From Nitrospirota bacterium (GTDB lineage Bacteria > Nitrospirota > Thermodesulfovibrionia > Thermodesulfovibrionales > JdFR-88): a stretch of 64,000 nt of DNA. Positions 40,891 to 64,000 of this stretch are shown in pieces (position 1 is the stretch's first letter; every line of letters begins with the position of its first letter). Location of the stretch: assembly GCA_014874185.1 (NCBI GenBank), contig JACWAF010000035.1:62001-126000 (forward strand). Direction: 5' to 3'. Both the position numbers and the translations under genes were made by a program. The notes beneath the pieces were generated by a model. That model saw nothing but the letters and a program-made list of their open reading frames with translations. It was not told where the DNA came from and made no database searches.

Positions 40891-42087
40891 TCAGGCCGGC
40901 AGCAGCGAGATCGCCGTGTCCAGAAGACGGTACGCCTTCTCGATATCGTCGAATGAGCGGTGGACCCAGTGGCTCCCCCAATAAAAGTTGCAGCTTGTCT
41001 CGGCCACAAGTATATGGTCGTATGCGGTTGTTATCAGGTGACGGACCTCTTCGGGGTTTCCCGCGCCGTGGTGGCGCTCGTCGAACGCGCGCTTCACCCT
41101 CTGATAATAATCACTTGCGCGGTGCAGTTCTTCCAGGCCCTTCTTTTGCAAAAGCGAGCCCGCCCACTGAGTGAAATCGCCTCCCCAGTGGTGGCCCGTG
41201 TTCCATGCGCCGCGATGGACTTCCACCTCTTCAGCCGGAGGGTGCATATTAAGGTATTCAGTGATGTGCACGGGCCGGAACCCGAGGGTGCCCGCCCTGT
41301 ACCGGTTTAACAGTTCGCGATAGAAGTGCCCCCAGAAGCCGCTCCCTATGTGAACGGTGCGGAACCAGCCCCCGTTGTCTCCGTCGGTCCATGTAGTGAC
41401 CAGGGCGGGGAAATCGCAATGTTTGGTCCGCTGATACACCTCGTGCTGAAACCAGCCGGGGTCCAGCCCCGAAAGCTGGGCGTTCGAGAGTTCGCGGTCC
41501 CGCGGGACCACTATTATCTCCGCGCCGCCGTACCGCGCCATATAGGGCCTGTAACGGAGTTCCTCCCAGCGCATCTCGCGCCGCGGCTTTATATACCAGG
41601 AGTCCACGACCACGTATCTGTAGCCGTGCCTTTTCAGCATCGGTATCATCTCCATGCAGAAGCCCATCTCGGGCGGCCAGAACCCCTGGAACCAGTCGCG
41701 GCCGAGCAGGTGCCTTCCAAGGCCGATCCACCACGAGGTCTGCGCGTCCCAGTCGGCTGCGGGGATCAGCGGATAGACCGGGTGATAAAGGCCCGTGCCC
41801 ACAAACTCGATGGGCGACCTCCTGAAACGCGCCAGGATGTCTTCGATATCCACGACGTCACGGAACGTCTGGCGGATGGCCGGGTCCTCGAACTGCTTCA
41901 GCAGCGTCCCCGAGAGGCCCATGTGCAGCCGCGCCACATCCTCGTAGCCTTCAAGCATGCGCGTTGGCCTGTCATAACACCAGAGTATCTGCCGGGACTC
42001 CCACCGTTCATCGGAATTGTGCAGGGCCAGAAGATTGCCAGGCGGCTGGTGCATGTTGAGTCCGAGTGCATGATAGACCTGTGGCAT
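40891..42087 (-). CDS. Glycoside hydrolase family 57 protein
   Basis: A 398-aa GH57 enzyme. Conserved regions: LNMHQPPG (region 1), EFVGTGLYHPVYPLIP, nucleophile region GFWPPEMGFCMEM and the Asp region TTWTDGDNGGWF. GH57 members are alpha-amylases, 4-alpha-glucanotransferases, branching enzymes or amylopullulanases. At this length, without the C-terminal domain of branching enzymes, the exact activity cannot be fixed. It fits the alpha-glucan genes near 59-64 kb. Confidence 0.85.
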   Translation of the reverse strand: MPQVYHALGLNMHQPPGNLLALHNSDERWESRQILWCYDRPTRMLEGYEDVARLHMGLSGTLLKQFEDPAIRQTFRDVVDIEDILARFRRSPIEFVGTGLYHPVYPLIPAADWDAQTSWWIGLGRHLLGRDWFQGFWPPEMGFCMEMIPMLKRHGYRYVVVDSWYIKPRREMRWEELRYRPYMARYGGAEIIVVPRDRELSNAQLSGLDPGWFQHEVYQRTKHCDFPALVTTWTDGDNGGWFRTVHIGSGFWGHFYRELLNRYRAGTLGFRPVHITEYLNMHPPAEEVEVHRGAWNTGHHWGGDFTQWAGSLLQKKGLEELHRASDYYQRVKRAFDERHHGAGNPEEVRHLITTAYDHILVAETSCNFYWGSHWVHRSFDDIEKAYRLLDTAISLLPA

Positions 42088-47373: not shown

Positions 47374-47408
47374 GAATGCCCGCCAATGTGATAAGTCTCT
47401 GAGTTGCA

Positions 47409-47440
47409 GGGGCCTCTTGCCTCCAGGAAGAAGGAGGCCC
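47409..47440 (+). promoter_or_regulatory. Hairpin sequestering the glucan-synthase ribosome site
   Basis: GGGGCCTC (47409-47416) pairs with GAGGCCCC (47433-47440). The 3' arm includes the end of AAGGAGG, the ribosome site of the giant gene. Confidence 0.5.
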
Positions 47441-47445
47441 CGGGC

Positions 47446-50400
47446 GTGAAAGTGAACAAAAAGACCGTCATGGGGAATCTGCATCAATTACGCTCGATCT
47501 TCCGCGGAACAGACCTGGCAAAAAAATGCGCTGTCTGCGAGCCTCCATTGCGGTCGGAATTGTTCAGCAGCGATCAGATGGAGCAGCACGGCAAGACCCT
47601 CGCGGCCTTGCATAAATTAAGCCCGGAATATGCCCCGGATCAGCTCCTGGCGCGGCTGGCCGACAATGAAAGTATCCTGACCGGGACCCGCAGCCTGCTG
47701 ATTGAGGCAATTACGACCGGCCGCCGGATTACGCCGGCGGGCGAATGGCTGCTTGACAACTTCTATCTGATCGAAGAACAAATACGCACGGCCAGGAAAC
47801 ATCTGCCCAAGGGGTACAGCCGCGAGCTTCCCCGCCTGCTGGAAGGCCTTTCGGCAGGGTTGCCGCGCGTGTATGACATCGCCTTGGAGACGATTTCACA
47901 CAGCGATGGGCGGATAGATACACAAAATCTGAGCAGGTTCATGGCAGCCTACCAGACGGTCGCCGTCCTGAAGTTGGGGGAATTGTGGGCAATCCCGATT
48001 ATGCTGCGGCTCGCGTTGATCGAAAATCTCCGGCGCGTTGGGGCGCGGATTGCCGCCGACAGACTCTACCGGAACCAGGCGGATTATTGGGCGGACCGGA
48101 TTGCTGAGATCGCCGGAAAAGACCCGAAGAGCCTGATATTGGTCATCGCGGACATGGCGCGGTCAAACCCGCCACTGAGGAGCGCGTTTGTTGCGGAATT
48201 TGCCCGCCGGCTTCAGGGTCAGGGGCCCGCCCTGGCAATGCCGCTCACATGGATTGAGCAGCGACTCTCCGAGAGCAGTCTGACAATCGACCATTTGGTA
48301 CAGTCGGAGAACCAGCAACAAGCAGCTGATCAGGTCTCGATGAGCAACAGCATCGGCAGCCTTCGTTTCCTTGGCACGATGGACTGGCGCGAGTTCGTCG
48401 AGACGATGAGCGTTGTCGAACAGACCTTGCGTGAGGATGCCGGCGGTATATACGGCAGAATGGATTTTTCTACTCGTGACCGTTACCGTCACGTGGTAGA
48501 GAAAATGGCGAAGAGAGGCCGGCTTTCGGAAGGCGAGGTGGCAGCCGAAGCGGTACGGCTCGCGCGTGAGAGTGCGGCCAATAAAGGCGCCGCCCGCGGC
48601 GGAGGTGACTCCGCAGCCCATGTGGGTTATTATCTGATCGACAAGGGATTGCCGCAGCTTGAAAAGCTGGCACGTGTGCGATTTTCTGTCTCCGGAGCCC
48701 TTCGGAAAGTGGGTTTCCGGTCCCCTTTGCTCCTCTATCTGGGCGCGATCACGTTTATAACGGTGATTTTCACCGGGGGGGTGCTGGCGAAGGCGCATGC
48801 TGATGGTTTACCTCTTTGGCTTCTCGTGGCTGCCGGCATTCTCACAACGCTGTGTGCAAGCCATCTTGCAGTTGCGATGGTGAACTGGCTTGCGACATTG
48901 CTGGCAATTCCGCAGCAGCTGCCGCGAATGGACTTTTCCACAGGCATTCCGCCTGAATCGCGGACCCTCGTCGTTGTCCCGGCTATGCTCACAAACGCCC
49001 AGGGGATCGCGGACCTGATCGAGGGGCTGGAAGTCAGGTTCCTCGCGAATCGCGACAATAACCTGCACTTCGGCCTACTGACTGATTTTCAGGATGCGAC
49101 AGAGGAAACACTGCCGGAGGACGAACCGCTGCTATTGCTTGCCCAACAGAGAATCGAAGAACTGAATGTAAAATACCGAAACGCAAAAGGCGATACGTTC
49201 TTCCTTTTTCACCGCCCGCGCCGATGGAATGCCCGGGACCGGGTCTGGATGGGTTATGAGCGCAAACGGGGAAAGCTGGCGGCATTGAATGCCTTATTGC
49301 GGGCCAAGGGAAATGGAGGGGCGCATGATCTGCCGGTAAACCGCTTTTCGCTCATCGTAGGCAATACGGAAATCCTGGCTAACATAAAATACGTGATCAC
49401 CCTTGACACGGATACTCAGTTGCCGCGCGATGCGGCGCGGCAGTTTGTGGGGGCCATGGCGCATCCGCTGAACCGTGCGCAATATGACGAAGGCCGGCAG
49501 CGCGTTGTTGACGGGTACGGCATCCTTCAGCCGCGTGTCGCCGTGAGTCTGCCCGGCACAAACCGCTCGCGGTATGCGCGCCTGTACGGGAGCGATCCCG
49601 GCATCGATCCGTACACGCGAGCCGTTTCGGATGTCTACCAGGATATCTTCCGTGAAGGCTCCTTTATCGGCAAGGGGATATATGACGTCGACATATTCGA
49701 GCAGACGTTGGGCGGACGTTTCCCCGAAAACCGGATTCTCAGCCACGATCTTATCGAAGGATGTTACGCACGCGCGGGCTTGTTGAGTGATGCAATGGTG
49801 TACGAGGAGTATCCATCCAGTTACAGCGCGGACGTGAGCCGCCGACACCGCTGGATTCGAGGGGACTGGCAGCTTGTGCGCTGGCTTTTGCCGGTTAATG
49901 GGCCCGGCCCCGATGGGGAGCGCCAAAAGAATCCTCTCTCGTTGCTGTCCAGGTGGAAGCTCTTCGACAACATTCGGCGCAGCCTCGTGCCTTCGGCCTT
50001 GACACTTCTCGTGCTGCTGGGTTGGACGGTCCTGTCATCAGCATGGTTCTGGAGCTTGTCGGTGATCGGGATTATTTTTATTCCTTTTTTTATAGCCTTT
50101 CTCCTGGATTTGTTTAGGCAGCCTGACGATATGCATTTTCTGCAGCATCTCGCTGCCGTGGTGCAATCCACCGCCAGGCGCCTTGTTCAGGCTGTCTTTA
50201 TGCTTGCATGTCTTCCGTACGAGGCGTTTTTCAGCCTGGATGCGATTGCGCGTACGACCTGGAGAATGTTGGTCACGCACAAGCGGCTCCTAGAATGGAG
50301 TCCTTCGGGCGATCCGAATAAAAATGCACGCGGCTCCCGTATCGGCGGTCTCGCCGGTGTCTGCCGGACAATGTGGTTCGCGCCTTTTATTGCCGTCGCG

Positions 50401-53400
50401 GCGATAATCTATCTGGCGCTTTTTAATCCCGCCGTTTTGGGAATGGCTGCGCCCATACTGCTGCTCTGGTTTGCCTCACCCGTTATCGCATGGTGGATCA
50501 GCCGGCCCCTTGCCCGGGACGAAGCAAGGCTTAGGCCTGGCCAGACCGTCTTTCTCCAAAAGCTTTCCCGAAAGACCTGGGCCTATTTCGAGACATTAGC
50601 CGGCCCCGAAGAGCATTGGCTGCCGCCCGATAACTATCAGGATTACCCTGCTCCCGCCGTTGCGCATCGCACGTCTCCGACCAATATGGGACTTGCGCTG
50701 CTGGCGAATTTATCCGCCCACGACTTTGGCTACATATCCACACGGCAACTCATTGAACGAACGGCAAATGCCCTCTCCACAATGGAAGCACTGGAGCGCT
50801 ATCAGGGCCATTTTTACAACTGGTACGACACGCAGTCTCTGAAGCCGCTGCCGCCCAAATACGTTTCGACCGTGGACAGCGGTAACCTTGCGGCCCATCT
50901 GCTAACGCTGAGGCAGGGTCTGCTCGCTCTTGCCGACCAGCCGGTCCTTGGCCCGCAAGTGTTTACCGGACTCCGCGACACGTTATGGATTTTGCTGGAT
51001 GTTGCGGCAAAAACAGGCTCTGACGGAGATGCCTCTGTCTTGCTCGATCAACTACGGAAGGAGCTTGAGTCCGCATGCGATTTCAGACCAACTGCGCTTG
51101 CCGCTGCACGGCTCAACCTCGAGCGGCTGGCAACATCCGCCGCAAAAGTGCTCAATAGTCTCGATGCCCCCGATGTGGATCCGGATGGCGAAGTCATCCG
51201 GTGGGCACGCGCTTTTGCCGGGCAATGCCGGGCCGCACTCGATGAGATCACGCATCTGGCCCCTTCCACGGCTCGCGGCATTGATGAGATGCCGACGCTG
51301 CGCGAACTGGCAGGCACCGGAAACGATCTCGCCTCTGAGAGGATCGCGGCTATCGAAAAGCTCGTGCTGCAATCCGGCGAACTCAGCCGCATGCAGTATG
51401 ACTTCCTGTTCGACAGGGCGAGTCACTTACTGGCCATCGGGTACAACGTCGACAGCCGCAGGCGGGACACGAGTTACTACGACCTGCTGGCATCGGAAGC
51501 GAGACTCTGCAGTTTTGTAGCGATCGCTCAGGGACAATTACCGCAGGAGAGCTGGTTTGCCTTGGGCCGCCTGCTCACGAATGTTGGCGGAGAGCCGATA
51601 CTTGTTTCCTGGAGCGGTTCGATGTTCGAATACCTCATGCCGCTCCTCGTGATGCCAGCGTATGAGCGTACGCTGCTCGACGAGACCTGCAAGGCGGCAG
51701 TGGCCAGGCAGATCGAGTATGGAAGGAAACAGGGGGTGCCCTGGGGCATTTCGGAATCCGGCTACAACACAATCGACGCTCATCAAAATTACCAATACCG
51801 CGCCTTCGGCGTACCTGGCCTGGGACTCAAGCGCGGGCTCGCCGACGACCTTGTCATTGCGCCCTATGCCTCGGCGCTTGCGCTGATGGTGGCTCCCGAA
51901 GAGGCGTGCCTGAATATGCAGCGGCTCGCAGCGGAGGGATGCGAGGGCAAATTCGGCCTCTATGAAGCGGTCGATTACACTCCATCGCGTCTGCCGCGCA
52001 GACAATCGAGCGTTGTGGTCCGGTCATTTATGGCTCATCATGTGGGCATGAGCTTTCTCTCCCTTGCCTGTTTGCTATTGGACCGTCCGATGCAGAAGCG
52101 ATTCGAATCGGACCCATTGTTCCAGGCAACAACGCTTCTGCTCCAGGAGCGCGTGCCAAGGGCCACGACATTCTATTCGCAGACCACCGACCTCGCCGAA
52201 GCGCATATGGCTGCCAGCGGCGCGGAGAGCTCCGTGCGCTCTTTCAGCAGCCCGGACACGCCGTTTCCCCAGGTGCAGTTGCTGTCCAACGGCAGATACC
52301 ATGTGATGATCACGAACGCCGGAGGCGGGTACAGCCGCTGGAAAGACATCGCGGTCACGCGGTGGCGTGAAGATACAACCCGTGACAACTGGGGCGCTTT
52401 TTGTTATATCCGTGAAGTGGCCAGCGGGGAGTTCTGGTCGGTCGCATATCAGCCTGCGCTCAAACGCCCGAAGAATTATGAGGCGATTTTCTCGGAAGGC
52501 AGGGCGGAGTTTCGCTGCCTGGACCACGACTTTGACACTCATACCGAAATCGCTGTGTCCCCCGAGGATGATATTGAACTGCGCAGGGTCACGATCACCA
52601 ACCGCGGCAGAACACGCAGAGAGATCGAAGTCACGACTTACGCGGAGGTTGTCCTTGCGCCGCTTGCCGCAGACGGGCTTCATCCGGCGTTAAGCAATCT
52701 TTTTGTTCAGACGGAGATCATCGGCCACAGGCAGGCAATCCTCTGCACCCGCCGTCCCCGCTCACTTGACGAGCATCCGCCCTGGATGTTTCATCTAATG
52801 GCCGTCCAAGGGACGGAAACCGGCGAAGTTTCCTATGAGACCGACCGCCTTCGGTTCATCGGTCGCGGAAAAACCCTTGCCAACCCGCAGGCCCTATGCA
52901 GCGCCGCTGCACTCTCCGGCGGCGAGGGCCCGGTGCTCGATCCGATCGCCGCTATCCGTTGCCGCATGACCCTTGATCCGGAAAGATCTGCAACAATAAA
53001 TATTGTCACCGGCATTGGTGAACCCCGGGACCTCTGTATGGGCCTCATAGAGAAATACCAGGACCGGTATCTTGCTGACCGCGTCTTCGATCTTGCATGG
53101 ACACACAGCCAGGTACTCCTACGGCAGATCAATGCCACAGAGGCCGATGCGCAGCTCTATGCCAGCCTGGCCGGCTCCGTGATCTACGCCAATCCAACGC
53201 TTCGCGCGGACCCTGACGTTATCACCCGGAACCGCCGCGGGCAATCCGGTCTGTGGGGCTACTCCATTTCCGGCGATCTCCCGATCGTTTTGTTGCAGAT
53301 CGCAGATCCGGCCAACATTGACCTGGTACGTCAGCTGGTACAGGCACACGCGTACTGGCGTCTCAAGGGACTCGCGGTGGACCTCGTGATCTGGAATGAA

Positions 53401-56130
53401 GATCACGCCGGTTACCGGCAGCTTCTGCAAGAACAGATCATGGGACTCGTTGCCGCAGGCGTAGAAGCGAACGTGACAGAACGGCCGGGCGGCATCTTCG
53501 TAAGACCTGCGGACCAGATATCGGATGAGGACCGCATCCTGCTCCAGACAGTAAGCCGCGCGGTCATCACCGACAGCCTTGGCCCGCTCGCGGACCAGAT
53601 CAACCGCCGCAGTATTGTGCCACTCATAGTACCGCGCCTTGCGCCGGCCCGGAACCATCGCGCCGAATCCCCGGCTGCCGTGGCAATTACTCGAAGCGAT
53701 CTGCTGTTTTTTAACGGACTCGGCGGGTTCACCCCCGATGGCCGCGAGTATATCATCACGACCACCCGCGAACAGGTGACTCCGGCGCCATGGGTGAATG
53801 TGATCGCGAACCCGCACTTCGGGACGGTTATTTCGGAGAGCGGATCTGCTTACACCTGGAACGAGAATGCCCATGAGTTCCGCCTCACCCCCTGGTACAA
53901 CGACCCGGTATGCGATCCCGGCGGAGAAGCTTTTTACCTCCGCGATGAAGAAAGCGGCCTTTTCTGGTCCCCTGCTCCGTTGCCCGTCCGGGGGGCGATG
54001 CATTACGTCAGCCGCCATGGATTCGGTTACAGTGTCTTTGAACACACAGAAGACGGCATCAGATCAGAGATGTGGGTTTACGTGGCAATGGATGCATCGG
54101 TCAAGTTGACGGTATTGAAAGTGAAAAACGAATCGGGCCGGTCCCGTCGGCTCTCGGCCACCGGGTACGTGGAATTGGTGCTGGGGGACCTGCGGCCGAA
54201 AACGGCAATGCATGTGATCACCGAAATCGATCCCAAAACCGGCGCGCTTTTTGGGCGGAACCCATATAACACGGAGTTCTCCGGCCGGACGGCGTTCTTC
54301 GACGTGGATGAGGCGACCCGGACAGTAAGCGGCGAGCGAACAGAGTTCCTTGGCCGTAACGGCACGCTCCGGCGCCCGGAGGCGATGTCCCGTGCGCGGC
54401 TTTCCGGCAGGGTAGGGGCTGGCATGGACCCCTGCGGCGCCATCCAGGTCCCCTTCGATCTTGCTGAGGGGCAAGAGCGCGAGATTATCTTCAGGCTCGG
54501 CGTCGGGCGAGACTCATATGATGCCAGCCAACTGGTGCTCCGCTTCCGAGGATCTGCCCCGGCGCGCGGAGCGCTCGAGAAAGTCTGGCAGTACTGGAAC
54601 CACACCCTGGGCGCAGTGCAGGTGGAAACACCGGACCAGTCCGTCAATGTGCTGGCCAACGGCTGGCTCTTGTACCAAACTCTGGCATGCCGTCTCTGGG
54701 CAAGGTCCGGATATTACCAGCCCGGGGGCGCCTTCGGCTTCCGTGACCAGTTGCAGGACGCGATGGCGCTTATCCACTCTAAGCCTCGACTTGTGCGCGA
54801 GCACCTCCTCCTCTGCGCGGCCCATCAGTTCAGGGAGGGAGACGTCCAGCATTGGTGGCATCCCCCGACCGGGCGCGGCGTACGTACACACTGTTCGGAC
54901 GACTTTCTCTGGCTGCCCCTGGCCGTGTGCCGGTACGTTCTGACTACCGGAGATACGGGGGTGCTGGATGAAACTGTCCGCTTCCTCGATGGCCGCCCGG
55001 TAAACAAAGACGAGGACTCGTATTACGATCTCCCCCACGCGTCTGAAGAGGCTGCGAGTTTGTACGATCACTGCGTACGGGCCATTCTAAGGAGTTTCAG
55101 CCGCGGCGGGCACGGTTTGCCGCTCATCGGCTCGGGTGATTGGAACGACGGAATGAACACAGTGGGCAAAGACGGCAAGGGTGAAAGCGTTTGGCTGGGG
55201 TTCTTCCTCTACAAAGTGCTCGTAGAGTTCTGTCAGATTGCGCTTCTGAAAAGTGATCTGCCGTTTGCCGGACGCTGCCGGGAGGAAGCTGCTCAACTGC
55301 GCAGGAATATCGAAGAGAACGGCTGGGATGGCGAATGGTATCTGCGCGCCTTCTTTGACGACGGCTCACCATTGGGTTCGGCGGGTAATACCGAATGCCG
55401 GATTGATTGTATCGCGCAAAGCTGGTCCGTTCTCTCCGGCGCCGGTGATGCCGAACGCTCACACATGGCAATGGAAGCGGTGGATAAGCTTCTCGTTCAG
55501 CGGGACCATGGCCTGATCCAGCTCCTGGCCCCCCCGTTCGATAAATCGGATCTGAACCCCGGCTACATCAAGGGATACGTCCCAGGTGTAAGGGAGAATG
55601 GAGGGCAATACACCCATGCGGCCATCTGGGCCGCGATGGCATTCGCCGCATTGGGCGACAGCAGTCTCGCGTGGGAACTGCTTACGATGATCAACCCGGT
55701 AAACCATGCGGGATCTCCAGGGAAGATTGCAACCTACAAGGTAGAACCGTATGTTGTCGCGGCAGACGTATATGCCGTCTCGCCGCACATTGGACGCGGT
55801 GGATGGACGTGGTACACGGGATCGGCCGGCTGGATGTACAGGCTTATCACGGAATCGCTTATGGGGATGCGGCTTGAAACGGACAAGCTGCGTTTTGCGC
55901 CGTGCCTGCCCGGTGAGTGGGAGTCATTCAAGATGCATTACCGGTATAGGGAAACCGTCTATCATATCACCGTGCTGCAAACGAACAACAGCGGCGCGGC
56001 GAGTGTGATCGTCGATGGCGTAGAGCAGCCAGACACGGCAATCCCGCTCCTTGACGACCATCGTGAACATACGGCCGAGATGAGAATACCAGCCCCGGAC
56101 AAAACGAAGGGGAATGATATAGCAAAATAA
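47446..56130 (+). CDS. ndvB: Cyclic beta-1,2-glucan synthase (NdvB/ChvB type, GT84 + GH94)
   Basis: A giant inner-membrane enzyme of about 2,894 aa. GTG 47446 is chosen because AAGGAGG lies 8 nt upstream; TTG 47404 has no such site. Two membrane helices near residues 425-480, then the GT84 glycosyltransferase with LDTDTQLPRDAA (about 654) and RRHRWIRGDW (about 798), and further membrane helices at about 848-890 and 975-1020. Glucoamylase-like and carbohydrate-binding regions (SGYNTIDAHQNYQYRAFG) precede the C-terminal GH94-type phosphorylase half with catalytic Asp in GSGDWNDGMN (about 2561). It makes periplasmic osmoregulated cyclic glucans from UDP-glucose. No NdvA exporter is in the window. 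Codon choice differs from the host genes, fitting transfer with the island. Confidence 0.93.
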   Translation: MKVNKKTVMGNLHQLRSIFRGTDLAKKCAVCEPPLRSELFSSDQMEQHGKTLAALHKLSPEYAPDQLLARLADNESILTGTRSLLIEAITTGRRITPAGEWLLDNFYLIEEQIRTARKHLPKGYSRELPRLLEGLSAGLPRVYDIALETISHSDGRIDTQNLSRFMAAYQTVAVLKLGELWAIPIMLRLALIENLRRVGARIAADRLYRNQADYWADRIAEIAGKDPKSLILVIADMARSNPPLRSAFVAEFARRLQGQGPALAMPLTWIEQRLSESSLTIDHLVQSENQQQAADQVSMSNSIGSLRFLGTMDWREFVETMSVVEQTLREDAGGIYGRMDFSTRDRYRHVVEKMAKRGRLSEGEVAAEAVRLARESAANKGAARGGGDSAAHVGYYLIDKGLPQLEKLARVRFSVSGALRKVGFRSPLLLYLGAITFITVIFTGGVLAKAHADGLPLWLLVAAGILTTLCASHLAVAMVNWLATLLAIPQQLPRMDFSTGIPPESRTLVVVPAMLTNAQGIADLIEGLEVRFLANRDNNLHFGLLTDFQDATEETLPEDEPLLLLAQQRIEELNVKYRNAKGDTFFLFHRPRRWNARDRVWMGYERKRGKLAALNALLRAKGNGGAHDLPVNRFSLIVGNTEILANIKYVITLDTDTQLPRDAARQFVGAMAHPLNRAQYDEGRQRVVDGYGILQPRVAVSLPGTNRSRYARLYGSDPGIDPYTRAVSDVYQDIFREGSFIGKGIYDVDIFEQTLGGRFPENRILSHDLIEGCYARAGLLSDAMVYEEYPSSYSADVSRRHRWIRGDWQLVRWLLPVNGPGPDGERQKNPLSLLSRWKLFDNIRRSLVPSALTLLVLLGWTVLSSAWFWSLSVIGIIFIPFFIAFLLDLFRQPDDMHFLQHLAAVVQSTARRLVQAVFMLACLPYEAFFSLDAIARTTWRMLVTHKRLLEWSPSGDPNKNARGSRIGGLAGVCRTMWFAPFIAVAAIIYLALFNPAVLGMAAPILLLWFASPVIAWWISRPLARDEARLRPGQTVFLQKLSRKTWAYFETLAGPEEHWLPPDNYQDYPAPAVAHRTSPTNMGLALLANLSAHDFGYISTRQLIERTANALSTMEALERYQGHFYNWYDTQSLKPLPPKYVSTVDSGNLAAHLLTLRQGLLALADQPVLGPQVFTGLRDTLWILLDVAAKTGSDGDASVLLDQLRKELESACDFRPTALAAARLNLERLATSAAKVLNSLDAPDVDPDGEVIRWARAFAGQCRAALDEITHLAPSTARGIDEMPTLRELAGTGNDLASERIAAIEKLVLQSGELSRMQYDFLFDRASHLLAIGYNVDSRRRDTSYYDLLASEARLCSFVAIAQGQLPQESWFALGRLLTNVGGEPILVSWSGSMFEYLMPLLVMPAYERTLLDETCKAAVARQIEYGRKQGVPWGISESGYNTIDAHQNYQYRAFGVPGLGLKRGLADDLVIAPYASALALMVAPEEACLNMQRLAAEGCEGKFGLYEAVDYTPSRLPRRQSSVVVRSFMAHHVGMSFLSLACLLLDRPMQKRFESDPLFQATTLLLQERVPRATTFYSQTTDLAEAHMAASGAESSVRSFSSPDTPFPQVQLLSNGRYHVMITNAGGGYSRWKDIAVTRWREDTTRDNWGAFCYIREVASGEFWSVAYQPALKRPKNYEAIFSEGRAEFRCLDHDFDTHTEIAVSPEDDIELRRVTITNRGRTRREIEVTTYAEVVLAPLAADGLHPALSNLFVQTEIIGHRQAILCTRRPRSLDEHPPWMFHLMAVQGTETGEVSYETDRLRFIGRGKTLANPQALCSAAALSGGEGPVLDPIAAIRCRMTLDPERSATINIVTGIGEPRDLCMGLIEKYQDRYLADRVFDLAWTHSQVLLRQINATEADAQLYASLAGSVIYANPTLRADPDVITRNRRGQSGLWGYSISGDLPIVLLQIADPANIDLVRQLVQAHAYWRLKGLAVDLVIWNEDHAGYRQLLQEQIMGLVAAGVEANVTERPGGIFVRPADQISDEDRILLQTVSRAVITDSLGPLADQINRRSIVPLIVPRLAPARNHRAESPAAVAITRSDLLFFNGLGGFTPDGREYIITTTREQVTPAPWVNVIANPHFGTVISESGSAYTWNENAHEFRLTPWYNDPVCDPGGEAFYLRDEESGLFWSPAPLPVRGAMHYVSRHGFGYSVFEHTEDGIRSEMWVYVAMDASVKLTVLKVKNESGRSRRLSATGYVELVLGDLRPKTAMHVITEIDPKTGALFGRNPYNTEFSGRTAFFDVDEATRTVSGERTEFLGRNGTLRRPEAMSRARLSGRVGAGMDPCGAIQVPFDLAEGQEREIIFRLGVGRDSYDASQLVLRFRGSAPARGALEKVWQYWNHTLGAVQVETPDQSVNVLANGWLLYQTLACRLWARSGYYQPGGAFGFRDQLQDAMALIHSKPRLVREHLLLCAAHQFREGDVQHWWHPPTGRGVRTHCSDDFLWLPLAVCRYVLTTGDTGVLDETVRFLDGRPVNKDEDSYYDLPHASEEAASLYDHCVRAILRSFSRGGHGLPLIGSGDWNDGMNTVGKDGKGESVWLGFFLYKVLVEFCQIALLKSDLPFAGRCREEAAQLRRNIEENGWDGEWYLRAFFDDGSPLGSAGNTECRIDCIAQSWSVLSGAGDAERSHMAMEAVDKLLVQRDHGLIQLLAPPFDKSDLNPGYIKGYVPGVRENGGQYTHAAIWAAMAFAALGDSSLAWELLTMINPVNHAGSPGKIATYKVEPYVVAADVYAVSPHIGRGGWTWYTGSAGWMYRLITESLMGMRLETDKLRFAPCLPGEWESFKMHYRYRETVYHITVLQTNNSGAASVIVDGVEQPDTAIPLLDDHREHTAEMRIPAPDKTKGNDIAK

Positions 56131-56904: not shown

Positions 56905-57375
56905 ATGAAAAAAATACTATATACAGTGCTTTTCTGCCTGGGGCTTTCGGCATTCAATTTTGCGGCTCCCAACCGGGTTCAGGCCACGCTTGGCGAATCT
57001 GCTGGTTCGGTCGAGTCCGACATGAGGACACTCTCGGCCAGGCGGTTTGCCACAACGTCCCGCAATGGTTATACAGTTCAGGAGATAAGCTACGATTCGG
57101 TCAAAGTGCGCGAATACGTTTCATCATCCGGCATCGTATTCGGCATCGCCTGGAATGGGTTTGTTCACCCAGATCTCACAAAGCTCCTGGGCTCCTATGC
57201 GGAGGAATATCACGCCGCCTTGCGGCAGATGCCTCGCAAACATGGCCAAAGGCCCTTGGAGGTGAAGACAAATAAGGTCGTTGTCCAGCAATGGGGGCAC
57301 ATGAGAAACCTGCAGGGCCGCGCCTATGCGCCAGCTTTAATTCCTCCCGGGGTGAGCGTCGATGAAATCAAATAA
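56905..57375 (+). CDS. DUF2844 family exported protein
   Basis: A 156-aa secreted protein: signal peptide MKKILYTVLFCLGLSAFNFA, then the DUF2844 pattern (LGESAGSVESDMRTLS, YTVQEISYDSVKVREYVSSS, GIVFGIAWNGFVHPDLTKLLG). Function unknown. It overlaps the DUF3443 gene by 14 bp; the two families are commonly paired, so they probably act together in the envelope. Confidence 0.82.
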   Translation: MKKILYTVLFCLGLSAFNFAAPNRVQATLGESAGSVESDMRTLSARRFATTSRNGYTVQEISYDSVKVREYVSSSGIVFGIAWNGFVHPDLTKLLGSYAEEYHAALRQMPRKHGQRPLEVKTNKVVVQQWGHMRNLQGRAYAPALIPPGVSVDEIK

Positions 57376-58618
57376 CATACTGCTTTTGTTCCTCCTCGCG
57401 CTTATGGCCGGCTGCGGCGGAGGTTCAGGGGGAGGCGCGGCATCCGGCAATCCCCCAAGCGGGGGGTCCGGCGCTCCACCGGGAGGCGGAACTCCACCTG
57501 CCAGCACAAATAACGTGCTGTCCATTACGGTGAACGGCTCTTTGTGTTCTTCTGAAACTTCTTCTTCCTACCCTAATAAACCTTGCGTCAGCCTCACGGT
57601 CTGCACCCCTGGCACGACAGCCTGTCAAACAATCAATGACATATTGCTTGATACCGGAAGCTACGGCCTGAGGATATTCAAGTCAGCCCTGAATGTTTCT
57701 CTTGTCCCGGTGACAAACAACTCCGGAGCAACGATTGCCGAGTGCGTCCAGTATGCCGATGGTTCTTCGGATTGGGGACCTGTCCAGACTGCCAGCGTCA
57801 TCCTGGGCAATGAGCCTGCCGTTCAGGTCCCGATTCAGGTTATAGACCCTGCGTTTGGCAATGCCGCCCAAGCTTCATGCGAGCATTTGGATACAAGCCC
57901 GGCCGAGGCTGGATTCAACGGAATTTTGGGAATTGGTTCTTTCGCGCAGGATTGCGGTTCGCGGTGCGCAAGCGATGGCAACAACGGGATATATTATGCT
58001 TGCAGCGGTTCGAATTGCAGCGGAACCGAAGTTCCTCTTTCCAGTCAGGTTCAGAACCCTGTGGCCCTTCTCCCCCAGGATAACAACGGTGTGATAGTGC
58101 AGCTTCCCAACATTCCAGCGGAAGGCTCTCTCTCTGCAAACGGCTACCTCGTCCTGGGGATTGGCACTCAATCCAACAACTCGCCTGTAACAGGAACGAT
58201 GACTTATCTCATCAATGATAATCCCGATAGTCAGCAGTACGGGGACATCAGCACAAGTTTCAATGGCCATACCTATGACAGCTTCCTTGACACCGGTTCG
58301 AATGGCCTCTTTTTCACATCGCCAGCCAGTCTTCCAAACTGCGCTTCTCCCAACCAGGAATGGTTCTGTCCTCAGTCCACGCAGGACTTTTCCGCCACCA
58401 ACACAGGAGCCACTGGTTCATCAAGCGACGCAGTATCGTTTCAAATAGGCAACTTCGACAGTTTTATCACATCGACTTACAACGTGTCCTCCGAAATCGG
58501 GGCTAACCCGGGTGGAGAGTTCGATTGGGGGCTTCCATTCTTTTTTGGACGGAACGTCTATGTGGGGCTCGAAGGAAAGCAATCCAGCCTGGGCACCGGG
58601 CCTTATTATGCATATTGA
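57362..58618 (+). CDS. DUF3443 family lipoprotein
   Basis: A 418-aa lipoprotein: lipobox LMAGC with Cys18, then a Gly/Ser/Pro-rich linker (about 19-48). The DUF3443 body has two aspartic-protease-like motifs, NDILLDTGSYGLRIF and DSFLDTGSNGLFF. The paired DTG triads suggest a pepsin-like fold, although proteolysis has not been shown for the family as far as I know. Cysteine-rich loops (SFAQDCGSRCASDGN, ACSGSNCSG) are probably disulfide-bonded in the periplasm. It ends the DUF2844-DUF3443 operon. Confidence 0.82.
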   Translation: MKSNNILLLFLLALMAGCGGGSGGGAASGNPPSGGSGAPPGGGTPPASTNNVLSITVNGSLCSSETSSSYPNKPCVSLTVCTPGTTACQTINDILLDTGSYGLRIFKSALNVSLVPVTNNSGATIAECVQYADGSSDWGPVQTASVILGNEPAVQVPIQVIDPAFGNAAQASCEHLDTSPAEAGFNGILGIGSFAQDCGSRCASDGNNGIYYACSGSNCSGTEVPLSSQVQNPVALLPQDNNGVIVQLPNIPAEGSLSANGYLVLGIGTQSNNSPVTGTMTYLINDNPDSQQYGDISTSFNGHTYDSFLDTGSNGLFFTSPASLPNCASPNQEWFCPQSTQDFSATNTGATGSSSDAVSFQIGNFDSFITSTYNVSSEIGANPGGEFDWGLPFFFGRNVYVGLEGKQSSLGTGPYYAY

Positions 58619-59046: not shown

Positions 59047-60207
59047 ATGAGAATAGGTCTGCTCTGCTGGGAATCGCTTCACTCCATTGCGGTGGGCGGC
59101 GTTGCCGTCCATGTGACCGAGCTTGCCGCCGCCCTCGAACGAAAGGGGCACGAGGTGCACGTATTCACAAGAATGGGCCATGGCCAGTCCCACTATGAGC
59201 TGATAGACGGGGTCCATTATCACAGGTGCCCTTTTCGGCTTGACCCGGACTTCGTTGAAGAAACAAACGAGATGTGCCGCTCGTTCGTACACCATGTCCT
59301 TCAGACCGAAAGCTACATGGGCGCCGCTTTTGATGTGATACACGCCCATGACTGGATGGCCGCAAACGCGATGATATGGCTGAAAAACAGCGGCCGGCGC
59401 AAATACGTTTTCACAATGCACTCAACCGAGTACGGCCGCTGCGGCAACAATTTCTTTAACGGCCGCTCGGGGGCCATCAGGGAGATAGAGCGCGCGGGTG
59501 CCTACTGGGCGGACAGGGTGGTAGTCGTCTCATCAGGCCTCAAAAAAGAGGTAATGTGGATGTACGAGACGCCCCCCTGGAAGGTCTCGGTGGTCTTCAA
59601 CGGGGTCAACCTGCGCCAGTTCGACGGCTGGATAAGTCCGGCCGATGTGAAGCGCCGCTACGGCATAGGGGCCATGGACCCTACCGTCCTTTTCTGCGGC
59701 CGCATGGTCTATCAGAAGTCCCCAGACCTCATGGTCGAGGCGATACCCTATATCCTCCGCTATCATCCGGACGCGAAGTTCGTCTTCGCGGGCGACGGCG
59801 AGATGAGAGGGCACGCAGAGTGGCTTTCGCACCAGCTTGGGGTGGCCCATGCAACGAGGTTTCCGGGCCACAAGTCAAACGGCGGATTAGGAGACCTTTA
59901 CAAGGCCTGCGACGCGGTCTGCGTCCCCAGCCGCAACGAGCCCTTCGGCCTGGTAGTCCTCGAGGCCTGGAGCGCCGGCAAACCGGTGGTGGTCACCAGA
60001 AACGGCGGGCCCGATGAATACGTCTGGCATGAGGTGAACGGGCTTAAGATTTACCCGAACCCCCAGTCCATAGCCTGGGGCATAGGGACGCTCTTTACGA
60101 ACTTCGAATGGGCAAGGTGGATGGGGCGCAACGGCAGGACAGCGGTCGAGAGCGCCTTTACGTGGGACGCCGTCTCGGAGAGGGTGCTTTCGCTCTATCA
60201 CGGCTGA
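59047..60207 (+). CDS. GT4 glycosyltransferase (glycogen-synthase-like)
   Basis: A 386-aa GT-B fold enzyme. N-terminal GGVAVHVTELAAALERKGHE (donor/acceptor loop), HAHDWMAA, MHSTEYGRCG, and C-terminal FCGRMVYQKSPDLMVEAIP and the E-x7-E motif PSRNEPFGLVVLEAWSAGKP. This pattern fits alpha-retaining GT4 enzymes that use nucleotide sugars, close to short glycogen synthase-like or maltose-1-phosphate synthase (GlgM) proteins. It converges with a GH13 gene and lies near the GWD gene, pointing to alpha-glucan synthesis. Confidence 0.87.
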   Translation: MRIGLLCWESLHSIAVGGVAVHVTELAAALERKGHEVHVFTRMGHGQSHYELIDGVHYHRCPFRLDPDFVEETNEMCRSFVHHVLQTESYMGAAFDVIHAHDWMAANAMIWLKNSGRRKYVFTMHSTEYGRCGNNFFNGRSGAIREIERAGAYWADRVVVVSSGLKKEVMWMYETPPWKVSVVFNGVNLRQFDGWISPADVKRRYGIGAMDPTVLFCGRMVYQKSPDLMVEAIPYILRYHPDAKFVFAGDGEMRGHAEWLSHQLGVAHATRFPGHKSNGGLGDLYKACDAVCVPSRNEPFGLVVLEAWSAGKPVVVTRNGGPDEYVWHEVNGLKIYPNPQSIAWGIGTLFTNFEWARWMGRNGRTAVESAFTWDAVSERVLSLYHG

Positions 60208-60211
60208 GCGT

Positions 60212-61513
60212 CTATTCTTCCGGGAAGCGGTCCCTCGCGGCCACAAGCACGATCCCCTGCCCGGGCCTCAGGTCATAAGAGAAGGGCTGGGGGATGTAGT
60301 CCAGCGGGTACTCCGGGGATATGTCCACGGCCGGCGCGCCCGCCTGTAAAAATCTCTGGAGGCTTTCTGCCCGGAAATTCTGTTTCCCCCGGATGTCCTT
60401 GTTCAGGATGAAGAGCGACTCCTGTTCGGTGCGCGTCGAGGCCTTCCACAAAAGGAGCACGTTCGGGTTGTCATGGGATAGCACGCTGGTTGGCGCGTCC
60501 TCCTGGAAGATGCTGTTTGCCGTCTTTATGCCGTTCACCCTCGCTATGAAAGAGCTGAGGTTGACTTCCGTCTGTTCCCAGTCAGCGGGCCTTGTCTTGA
60601 CGACGTGGAGCCTTTTTCTGAAGCCGAATTCGAACCCGATGGGCATCATCACCCCGGCTGAAAAAAGGGCCGAGAACAGATAGCGCTGCTTCATGCCGTC
60701 GATGTCTCCGCCCAGCTCTTCACACAGCCGTTCGGTGTCATGGGTTTCGGGAAAGCTTATCGAAGGGGCGATCTCCCTGGTGAGGGCGTATTGTTCCAGA
60801 AGCCAGGGGCTGGTGAAATCCCACCACTTCGAGCTGTTGAAGATATAATCGAAACCCGATGCCGCTGTCTTTCTGGTGAGGTCGGGAGGCGAGCCCAGGG
60901 TCTCGGCAAAGAAGAGGACGTCCGGGTGTCTCTGTTTTGTCTCGGCTATCAGTCTCTCCCAGAAGCTCCTGGGCACCTGATAGGCCGCGTCGCAGCGCAT
61001 CCCCTTGAAGCCCAGCTTCACCAGGAACTCGACCACTTCAACCCAATAACGGAACAGCCCTTCCTTGTCGCTTGAGTTCCGATGGTCAAACTTCGCGAGG
61101 TCGTACCAGACCACCTTCTTTCCGTTCTGCATCGCAAAGGGGTGCTCCACCTTTCCCCTGCCCTCCCAGGCGAACCAGGCGGGATGCCTTTTCAAAAGCT
61201 CCGAATCGACCGCGCAGTGGTTCAGCACAAGATCGGTCATCACCCTGAGGCCGAACCTTTCGGCGGCCCGTATCGCGTCCCTCAACTGGTCAGCGGCCCC
61301 CTTCCTGCCCTTTTCATCCACGAAGAGCGGATTGAATTCGAAATAGTCGGCGATGGAATAAAGGCTTCCGGAAGCCCCGGTGCGCTGAACGGGGTTCACG
61401 AATATCCAGTTGAAGCCCATCGTCCTTGCCCGCTCCATGTGTTTCTTCCATTCCGCAAACTTCCCGGCAAGGAGCGGAAACAGATTGTATATGATCACCT
61501 TCTCAGGTCTCAT
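60212..61513 (-). CDS. GH13 alpha-amylase family enzyme
   Basis: A 433-aa (beta/alpha)8 enzyme. Catalytic nucleophile Asp in GMRCDAAYQVP, acid/base Glu in LFFAETLG, stabilising Asp in FPETHDTERL, and DLVLNHCAVDSELL (region I) are present. The compact form (IFVNPVQRTGASGSLYSIADYFEF) resembles the GH13_3/GlgE maltosyltransferase relatives more than secreted amylases; no signal peptide, so it acts in the cytosol. Likely remodels an internal alpha-glucan. Transcribed with or near the GWD gene (81-bp gap, same strand). Confidence 0.85.
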   Translation of the reverse strand: MRPEKVIIYNLFPLLAGKFAEWKKHMERARTMGFNWIFVNPVQRTGASGSLYSIADYFEFNPLFVDEKGRKGAADQLRDAIRAAERFGLRVMTDLVLNHCAVDSELLKRHPAWFAWEGRGKVEHPFAMQNGKKVVWYDLAKFDHRNSSDKEGLFRYWVEVVEFLVKLGFKGMRCDAAYQVPRSFWERLIAETKQRHPDVLFFAETLGSPPDLTRKTAASGFDYIFNSSKWWDFTSPWLLEQYALTREIAPSISFPETHDTERLCEELGGDIDGMKQRYLFSALFSAGVMMPIGFEFGFRKRLHVVKTRPADWEQTEVNLSSFIARVNGIKTANSIFQEDAPTSVLSHDNPNVLLLWKASTRTEQESLFILNKDIRGKQNFRAESLQRFLQAGAPAVDISPEYPLDYIPQPFSYDLRPGQGIVLVAARDRFPEE

Positions 61514-61594: not shown

Positions 61595-64000
61595 TTAAAT
61601 CCCCACTTGGGGGCGCGTCTGCACTATGTAATACTGCCCGGCCGAAAAGGCCCCTTCGATATCCTGCGGCGGGCCCATCGCCTCTTCCACTACCCTGCCC
61701 ATCTCCGCTATCCCGGTCAATAACCCGGCCCTGAAGCCTTCGTCCCACACGATAGGGCTCCCGGAGTAATCCAGCGTGGCCCTCCGCGGCGCAGGCAGCA
61801 CGAAGCTGTCGTAGAGCCCGGCCCCCGCATAGCCTTCGAGGTCTTCGCCGTTCGAGTCCGAGCGGAATATGAGGCCGCCCCCGAAAAGGCCCGTGCTCTT
61901 GCTGGGAAAGGAAAGCGTCTTCGGCTCCCGCCCGCCCTTCCCGCAGACGAAGCCCAGCGCCCTTCCCGGATAATTGGCGGCCAGGGTCTCGCCAAGCCCC
62001 GTCACCACCTCGGCATAGACCTCTTCCCGCTCACCAGAGAAGGGGTTTGCCGTATGGATAACAAAGCTGTAGTCCGCCTGCACCACCTCCTGCACCAGGA
62101 CGGACATCATGAGGTCCTCGTGCCTTATGCCGTTTGCAACCCGGCTAAGATACGCCCTTTCGTTCCACTTCGAGGCCCAGACGCGCTTTATGCACTGCCA
62201 GGCCTTCTCCCAATCATCGGGCGAGGGGGGCCAGGAGGGCCCGACATCGCCCATTATTTTCTTGAGGGCGCGGACAAGCTCGTCCGGCGGCGCAAGGTCA
62301 AGGAGAATTTCCCGTATGCGGGGAAGCAGTTCCAAGCCTTTTGACGGCCCGGCCCCGAGCCTTTGAAGAAGCCCCTCGTATCCCGAGGCGGCCTGTTTGT
62401 TAGCGTCCCCCGAGAGCGCCTTTTCGAAGACCCCGAACGGAAGGGCCGCCGAGCGCGGCATCTTTATCCATGAAGGCAGTTTGTCGCGCACGAGTTTCAG
62501 GTTATTCGACTTGTAGCCCACGTTCTGCGGGGTGAAATCCTGCATCGGCAGGGCGTAAACCGTAAAGCCATGCCTTGCCAGGGCGGCGCGCACGGGTTTT
62601 ACGCGCATAGGCGCGGCGGTTTCTTCCTCTGCCGCTTCCCCGAAGGAGACATTGTTTGTCCCGAGAGCCTCGACCATGAGCAGCCGCCCCTTATAAGACT
62701 TCAGCTCATCCAGTTTCGCTGGGTTGAAGCAGGTGGCAAAGGGCACGCCCGAGTTCCTTGCCCTTATGGCCAGGTGCGAAAGACTGTCCACCATGGCGGG
62801 CGTTATAATGGCCGCAACCCCGCCCGGTATCTCTTCATCGCCCGCCACCGAGTTCGCAATAACGACCTCCGGCCGCGGCAGGTCCCTTCCCTGTATCGCC
62901 CTGAGGGCGTCGATAACGATCACCTCTCCCACGCCCTTTCCCCTGCTTACGATCTGCCAGTCGCCAAGCTCCGCGTTTTTTCTGAGCACCGGGTCTATAG
63001 CGTGCAGAAGCATTGAGAGCGCAAACGCGGGACGCCCGCGGAGCACCTCTTCAGTGAAGAGGTCAACCGTCCACGGCGAGGCGTGAAACGCCCTGCCAAG
63101 GTATGCCGCCTTGGGCTGGAGCAACTCCTGATAATGCTGGGCGAACGAGCCAAGGGCGCGCAGCAGGCGGTCCACTGCGGCCTCTGCCCGCAGCGACCAC
63201 TCCCTTTCGAACTCCCGCGCGACATACGCGATGCCCCCGTGAGGCGCATCCTGAAGCAGCCGCCGCCAGAACCTGAGTGAAATGGAAAACTCTTCATCAG
63301 TCTGTGTCAGGCTGACATTCTCAAGGGAAAATCCTATCGCATCAACCATCTGCCCGGGGTTTAGCTGCCCCAGGCCCCTCTCAATGACTGAGCGGACGAA
63401 ATCCTCCAGGGCTATATCCAGAAACAGAAGGTCCCGGACTCTGTGTGCAGGCCCCGTAAGCTCTTTAAAAAGCCAGCGCCTGGCCTCCACCGCCTTCTCA
63501 AGCAGGATGAGCGCCTCGGGGCTGTTCTGGCGGGCCCAGATGGAATCCATCAGGGACTGCATCCCTGGACCCAGGAGGTGCCTTGCGTTCTGCATGGCTA
63601 TTCCCAGGTCAGCGCCCGCGTGGACCTCTTTCAGAATGCCCAGGAAGCGCTCGAAATCCCAGATAAGGGCGTCCTTCAGTTGCGGGATGAAATCAGGGTC
63701 GGACGTTATCGGCCTTTCATAGCTCCTCAAGCGCTCCCTCGTCACGCCGCCCTCTTCAAGCCTCCGGTAAAAGCGGTCCAGGTCTCCATTGGAGCGGAGA
63801 AATTCCAGGTAGGCCTCGCAGATTATTACGTCGTCGGGCGTCGTGTTGTTGTGCAGCTTCTGGTGCCACTCTTCCATGAAATGGCCCGACACCTCTTTTA
63901 TGTGATGGCGGTGCATGATACTGAGCACCTCGTCGCGGACGCGCTGGGCGTTGCCGCCCCGTCCGAGGGTGGTCATTATAAGCCTTATCAGCTCGCGCGC
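61595..64000 (-). CDS. Plant-like alpha-glucan water dikinase (GWD), 5' partial
   Basis: At least 801 codons; the frame is open to the window end and the N-terminus is missing. GWD phosphorylates glucosyl units of starch, using ATP's beta-phosphate via a phospho-His. Blocks matching plant GWD: LGRGGNAQRVRDEVLSI, MEEWHQKLHNNTTPDDVIIC, EVHAGADLGIAMQNARHLLG, the phospho-His domain SLSHLAIRARNSGVPFATCF, and the C-terminal ATP-binding domain FRSDSNGEDLEGYAGAGLYD, PPQDIEGAFSAGQYYIVQTR. PEP synthase and phosphoglucan-water dikinase share the mechanism, but the HQKLHNN block is GWD-specific. Whether N-terminal starch-binding domains (CBM45-like) exist lies outside the window. Confidence 0.92.
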   Translation of the reverse strand, partial: ARELIRLIMTTLGRGGNAQRVRDEVLSIMHRHHIKEVSGHFMEEWHQKLHNNTTPDDVIICEAYLEFLRSNGDLDRFYRRLEEGGVTRERLRSYERPITSDPDFIPQLKDALIWDFERFLGILKEVHAGADLGIAMQNARHLLGPGMQSLMDSIWARQNSPEALILLEKAVEARRWLFKELTGPAHRVRDLLFLDIALEDFVRSVIERGLGQLNPGQMVDAIGFSLENVSLTQTDEEFSISLRFWRRLLQDAPHGGIAYVAREFEREWSLRAEAAVDRLLRALGSFAQHYQELLQPKAAYLGRAFHASPWTVDLFTEEVLRGRPAFALSMLLHAIDPVLRKNAELGDWQIVSRGKGVGEVIVIDALRAIQGRDLPRPEVVIANSVAGDEEIPGGVAAIITPAMVDSLSHLAIRARNSGVPFATCFNPAKLDELKSYKGRLLMVEALGTNNVSFGEAAEEETAAPMRVKPVRAALARHGFTVYALPMQDFTPQNVGYKSNNLKLVRDKLPSWIKMPRSAALPFGVFEKALSGDANKQAASGYEGLLQRLGAGPSKGLELLPRIREILLDLAPPDELVRALKKIMGDVGPSWPPSPDDWEKAWQCIKRVWASKWNERAYLSRVANGIRHEDLMMSVLVQEVVQADYSFVIHTANPFSGEREEVYAEVVTGLGETLAANYPGRALGFVCGKGGREPKTLSFPSKSTGLFGGGLIFRSDSNGEDLEGYAGAGLYDSFVLPAPRRATLDYSGSPIVWDEGFRAGLLTGIAEMGRVVEEAMGPPQDIEGAFSAGQYYIVQTRPQVGI

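Follow-up and report, generated by a model that had tools for sequence, protein, structure and literature searches.

Starch phosphorylation is usually described as having arisen with plastids. The locus analysed here raises the question of whether a bacterium of the Nitrospirota carries a plant-type alpha-glucan, water dikinase (GWD) and, if so, what the enzyme does there and how it is related to its plant counterpart. The window, that is the whole stretch of 64,000 nucleotides under analysis (G000:C30:62001-126000), belongs to a genome of 2.43 Mb with a completeness of 100% and a contamination of 0.32%. A minus-strand open reading frame at 61595-64000 encodes 801 amino acids and runs off the window edge. 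Recovery of the upstream sequence, proposed as a check in the initial annotation, located the N-terminus and, close to it, one CBM45-like module. The start codon (ATG) lies 687 bp past the window end on the same 321-kb contig (L006:16687), and the full gene (G000:C30:123595-126687, equivalent to L006:13595-16687, minus strand) encodes a GWD of 1030 amino acids. The frame in the window is the C-terminal part of this protein; the first 229 residues fall outside. The features of the gene within the window are as follows.

61595..64000, minus strand: GWD, residues 230-1030 of 1030 (Pfam, PDB matches, contig recovery)
62972..64000, minus strand: GWD central domain, in-window part of residues 130-572 (homologous to potato GWD1, PDB 9ha9/9qvi)
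62621..62959, minus strand: phospho-histidine domain PF22973, residues 577-689 (Pfam, 110.6 bits)
62774..62776, minus strand: codon of the catalytic His638, in SLSHLAIRARN (His in 56/56 bacterial GWDs)
61600..62530, minus strand: C-terminal ATP-binding domain, approximately residues 720-1027, with RSDSNGEDL and PQDIEG/VQTRP (Pfam, fold match)

The gene had been annotated as a plant-type GWD, and this was confirmed by its GWD domains, by its match to potato GWD1 and by the presence of every motif quoted. Pfam assigned a GWD-specific N-terminal Ig-like domain to residues 5-120 (Ig_N_CWD1, 69.8 bits), the phospho-histidine domain GWD1_pHisD well above its cut-off of 27 bits, and a PPDK_N core to residues 829-901 of the ATP-binding domain (75 bits). 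Residues 130-572 match the potato GWD1 structures 9ha9 (E 5e-89) and 9qvi (E 2e-88). The motifs MEEWHQKLHNNTTPDDVIIC, FRSDSNGEDLEGYAGAGLYD, PPQDIEG, YYIVQTRP and SLSHLAIRARN were all located in the window frame. The description of these blocks as near plant-identical is accurate for short stretches, since MEEWHQKLHNNTTPDDVIIC is identical to potato MQEWHQKLHNNTSPDDVVIC at 17 of 20 positions, but it does not extend to the protein overall, the central domain being 42.3% identical to potato GWD1 over 423 columns. An AlphaFold model of the protein was confident (pLDDT 85.8, pTM 0.78), and in a fold comparison its C-terminal domain matched rifampin phosphotransferase and dikinase-type ATP-binding domains.

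As the ATP-binding domain is a PPDK_N member whose nearest solved folds are rifampin phosphotransferases, the protein could in principle be a phosphoenolpyruvate (PEP) synthase, a pyruvate phosphate dikinase (PPDK) or another member of that superfamily, a phosphotransferase that modifies drugs. We regard this as extremely unlikely. The NCBIfam models of these families score only 22-68 bits, against cut-offs of 598-1700, and no PEP-utilizers_C domain was found in the protein by Pfam. The phospho-histidine domain precedes the ATP-binding domain, whereas PPDK has the reverse order, and the N-terminal, central and phospho-histidine domains that are confined to GWDs are all present. The genome also encodes a separate PPDK of 933 amino acids (1397 bits) and a PEP-synthase-like protein of 842 amino acids. 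Domain content, domain order and family scores below cut-off thus rule out a PPDK or PEP synthase identity, the case that the initial annotation had named as refuting.

The catalytic residues are conserved throughout the bacterial proteins. His638, R642, R644, N645 and C653 are invariant in 56/56 bacterial GWDs, and the RSDS and EDL motifs are present in all 55 rows that cover them. The equivalent domain of potato GWD contains an essential histidine, His992 (PMC12892837). The N-terminal module has CBM45-like aromatics at W42, W52, F99, W109 and Y117, spaced 10/47/10/8; the starch-binding aromatics of potato CBM45 are W129, W139, F184, W194 and F202, spaced 10/45/10/8 (PMC7569903). The same residue is found at these five positions in 44-49 of 56 bacterial GWD rows, the fifth being Tyr in the window GWD and Phe in potato. 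Compared with plant GWD1 (EC 2.7.9.4; StGWD1, Arabidopsis SEX1), the window GWD therefore has the same domains in the same order, the catalytic His and the CBM45 spacing, but differs in length (1030 against approximately 1400 amino acids), in carrying one CBM45 module rather than two, and in its position in a bacterial cluster with a GH13 enzyme. Two CBM45-like copies are present in other bacterial GWDs. The first Cys of the plant redox motif CFATC is missing from the window GWD and from all 56 bacterial sequences, which implies that regulation differs from that of plant GWD. As the redox disulfide is also missing in some plants and red algae (PMC7569903), the motif does not define the family.

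The ratio dN/dS of the window GWD is approximately 0.15-0.18 against its four nearest relatives (for example 0.114/0.632), indicating purifying selection and a gene that is maintained. Taking the full domain set, the conserved catalytic residues, this selection and the neighbourhood of alpha-glucan enzymes described below as a whole, the best explanation is that the gene very probably encodes a working bacterial GWD. The enzyme itself is of a known kind in a bacterial version, and the greater novelty lies in a paired system found in its relatives.

When one genome per species was scanned with short patterns from the window GWD as seeds, 62 GWD loci in at least seven phyla came up; seeds of this kind miss more distant members. 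By record title the phyla are Nitrospirota, Desulfobacterota/Deltaproteobacteria, Planctomycetota (anammox), Verrucomicrobiota, Pseudomonadota, Nitrospinota and Acidobacteriota. The comparison rests largely on metagenome-assembled genomes. The phospho-histidine domain was detected in 18 of 61 near relatives, in 19 of 246 sampled Nitrospirota (one below cut-off; approximately 7% over cut-off) and in 7 of 199 sampled Planctomycetota (five over cut-off, 2.5%). It was found in none of the well-known control genomes, and two scans of viral contigs for viral or giant-virus carriers found no GWD. The distribution is patchy and most GlgA-bearing relatives do not carry GWD; together with its low frequency this indicates that the enzyme is dispensable for glycogen metabolism generally. 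Bacterial GWDs had already appeared in a 2018 tree in the Goniomonas genome paper (PMC6260743, Fig. 9), the accessible text of which gives them one sentence, stating that some bacteria could have acquired GWD by lateral transfer. That text, in contrast to the present analysis, mentions no gene context, domain analysis or second bacterial dikinase.

The family has long been known mainly from plastid-bearing lineages (PMC6260743), as would be expected if a plant or algal contig had been mis-binned or the gene recently transferred from an alga. Against this, the gene has an uninterrupted frame and is flanked on both sides by the rest of a bacterial contig of 321 kb, in a genome with 0.32% contamination, and its synteny is kept in separately assembled genomes (L093/L025 and L098/L078). 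Homologues are present in several phyla and on the long bacterial chromosome records CP070632, CP070692 and LT984854, and potato GWD1 sits on a long, separate branch of 1.59. Contamination or a recent algal transfer is hardly credible in the face of the contig, the synteny and the spread across phyla, and we have ruled it out.

The window GWD is accompanied by the following genes.

60212..61513, minus strand: GH13-type enzyme c1b (hDGE_amylase/alpha-amylase), 433 amino acids, a conserved partner (Pfam)
59047..60207, plus strand: GT4-family glycosyltransferase c3, convergent with the GH13 gene, position kept in close relatives
40891..42087, minus strand: small GH57 protein c8, here 19.5 kb from GWD

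The GH13 gene has the same orientation as GWD and follows it after 81 bp. The order GWD-GH13-GT4 is kept in the nearest relatives, L093 and, without the GH13 gene, L098; in L093 the small GH57 gene adjoins GWD. In the other bacteria, too, GWD mostly lies among genes of glycogen and starch metabolism. Recurrent neighbours across the 62 loci are this GH13 enzyme (25), a GH57 branching enzyme (12), the GT4 transferase (10), GlgA (9), GlgX (5) and GlgB (3), together with small GH57 proteins and a protein with DUF4912. Among the 61 relatives, the GH13 partner was present in 12/18 genomes with GWD and 2/43 without (p 8e-7, an optimistic value because the genomes are related). Elsewhere in the window, an AAA ATPase gene precedes a frame of 2908 amino acids at 47404-56130 (plus strand) that by eye resembles giant cyclic glucan synthases of the NdvB type, and genes for DUF2844 and DUF3443 proteins stand side by side at 56905-58618 (plus strand).

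For glucan synthesis the window genome has ordinary bacterial genes: a GlgA-type synthase, GlgE, TreS-maltokinase and GlgB. GlgB, a TreS-maltokinase fusion and GlgE are found together at L127:1780-9431, and the GlgA-type starch synthase separately at L126:5559-7058. Judged from gene content, the genome has two routes to alpha-glucan, the GlgE set and the GlgA-type synthase. These genes lend no support to the proposal of an insoluble, starch-like storage polymer in this bacterium, and the computed data do not separate starch from glycogen.

Plant GWD phosphorylates C6 of glucosyl units. By analogy with plant GWD chemistry, the C-terminal domain of the window enzyme would bind ATP and pass the beta-phosphate to His638, from which the phospho-histidine domain would transfer it to a glucosyl unit of a storage alpha-glucan that the central domain and the CBM45-like module at the N-terminus would hold; AMP and phosphate would be released. 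Sequence does not predict the exact acceptor, or whether C6 or C3 would be phosphorylated. The phosphate groups may then loosen glucan helices, allowing the neighbouring GH13 and GH57 enzymes to degrade or remodel the polymer. The dikinase might instead act in alpha-glucan synthesis, or on some glucan distinct from storage glycogen, such as a GlgE product or a secreted one, without initiating breakdown. GlgE, TreS-maltokinase and GlgB are all encoded in the genome, a GT4 transferase adjoins the GH13 gene and the NdvB-like giant synthase is in the same window. The giant synthase, however, looks like an enzyme for beta-glucans, in contrast to GWD with its CBM45 module for alpha-glucan, and the associations with GH13, GH57 and GlgX fit remodelling or degradation at least equally well; we consider a role in synthesis or on such another glucan improbable. 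The wide occurrence of bacterial GWD suggests that phosphorylated storage glucans may exist in some bacteria. Removal of glucan phosphate is the job of SEX4 and laforin in plants and animals; no plant-type dual-specificity (DSP) glucan phosphatase was found in the window genome. DSP-domain proteins occur in some other GWD genomes.

At 21 of the 62 loci, the next recognised gene after GWD encodes a second dikinase, here termed GWD-B, which often overlaps or touches it (for example L028:12029-15457, L055:12472-16116, L068:12439-15957 and L134:5143-8844). Complete GWD-B proteins have approximately 1130-1270 amino acids and combine a xylose-isomerase-like TIM barrel at the N-terminus with a diverged form of the GWD central part, a phospho-histidine domain and an ATP-binding domain. 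The barrel was found in five GWD-B proteins by Pfam scan and in four from Planctomycetota by profile, and the His of the phospho-histidine motif, LSHL, is invariant in 19/19. Wherever profile checks of Nitrospirota and Planctomycetota genomes found GWD-B, GWD was present too, and across 18 paired loci GWD and GWD-B distances correlate (r 0.84, p 0.0002), as expected if the two are inherited together. The plant enzyme PWD (GWD3, EC 2.7.9.5) is likewise a distant GWD paralogue that co-occurs with GWD, and, like GWD-B, it has central, phospho-histidine and ATP-binding parts; a search of the PDB and the other sequence collections found no plant PWD. We take the plant PWD C-terminus to be much like that of GWD-B (LSHLxVRARQ, RSSxNxED) and treat this as a lead; a text search for the motif gave no match. 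The two differ at the other end, PWD having a CBM20 (PMC6805951) where GWD-B has the TIM barrel. No paper describing the GWD-B fusion, bacterial GWD clusters or the barrel was found in the open-licence literature, which is weak evidence of novelty.

Another 15 loci have, as the first recognised gene after GWD, one for a stand-alone, 270-amino-acid copy of the GWD-B barrel. Close homologues of the barrel were present in 11/18 relatives with GWD and 0/43 without (p 8e-8, again optimistic because of relatedness). The positions H72, H106, E137, D170, H173, H199/H201/H203, D210, H212 and E246 are conserved in 34/35 rows. Alignments to endonuclease IV, which cover part of the ligands, place DxxH and E on metal-ligand motifs; we presume that the rest of the endonuclease IV ligand set (H, H, E, DxxH, H, DxH, E) is matched by spacing. 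The barrel also resembles CbiR, a cobamide phosphodiesterase (PMC7733943), at 39 bits, below the family cut-off of 105. It shares with the AP_endonuc_2 superfamily (endonuclease IV, CbiR, MJ1311) a TIM barrel and has conserved His/Asp/Glu positions that are candidate metal ligands, but is linked to glucan dikinases rather than to genes for DNA repair or cobamides. The most economical reading, which is a guess, is that the barrel may remove phosphate from glucan in a metal-dependent reaction; it may instead be a sugar isomerase. In the relatives that have them, GWD-B and the endonuclease-IV-like barrel probably act on the same polymer as GWD, with the barrel as candidate phosphate remover. A third conserved protein, c1a, of approximately 350 amino acids and with no Pfam match, is encoded at L050:15492-16589 and in 14 related loci between GWD-B and the GH13 gene, and is sometimes fused to the GH13 enzyme (L028, L082). 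It is predicted to be a TIM barrel, and its structural matches in Foldseek, at modest TM-scores, are to sugar epimerases and endonuclease IV. The window genome has no GWD-B, no close barrel homologue and no c1a protein, and would have lost or never had the first two; the barrel lies between GWD and the GH13 gene in the close relative G006 (L094), so the window lineage has probably lost it.

The central-domain tree joined potato GWD1 with bacterial GWD, against GWD-B, with support 100/100. If the root lies between these groups, the split of GWD and GWD-B predates that of plant and bacterial GWD, and on this tree the two dikinases apparently diverged before plant and bacterial GWD did. Potato GWD1 fell inside the bacterial GWDs, but weakly (88/82), and the AU test did not reject a single group of all bacterial GWDs (p 0.13). 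With one plant sequence on a long branch, the tree does not settle the direction of transfer. Of the origins suggested in the initial annotation, a recent gain from a plastid-bearing lineage is unlikely, given the bacterial synteny, the several phyla and the long separate branch of potato; descent from an ancestral form in bacteria and an old transfer, whichever its direction, are both plausible.

The GWD/PWD duplication is held to have been present in the last common ancestor of Archaeplastida, with no homologue in the closest cyanobacterial relative of the plastid (PMC6805951), and red-algal GWD and PWD have been assigned to the eukaryotic host (PMC8703398). Widespread bacterial GWD, often paired with a second dikinase that seems to have split off early, offers a bacterial candidate source for plant starch phosphorylation, whose roots may then be older than usually assumed. 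More tentatively, and in our view doubtfully, the bacterial operon might constitute a full glucan phosphorylation cycle of GWD, a PWD-like dikinase-phosphatase-barrel fusion and hydrolases, from which the plant GWD/PWD pair descends; were such a duplicated bacterial pair ancestral, plant GWD and PWD would not be a eukaryotic invention. Full-length plant GWD structures are said to be still lacking (PMC12892837), and the bacterial GWDs provide shorter enzymes for structural work.

Five members of the window's own family (L092, L095, L096, L097 and L099) have a second copy of GWD itself (GWD-A, as distinct from GWD-B), of 1066-1102 amino acids and approximately 50% identical to the window GWD, followed by the GH13 partner, which points to duplication within the lineage. 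The low-scoring second phospho-histidine domain matches in these genomes were considered as GWD-B and rejected, as profile comparison assigned them to GWD-A; the domain score alone is therefore unsafe for assigning GWD-B. In two close relatives, short GWD fragments (L101:7944-8516 and L102:10073-10483) lie upstream of an intact GH13 partner, and here GWD has apparently decayed while the GH13 gene has been retained.
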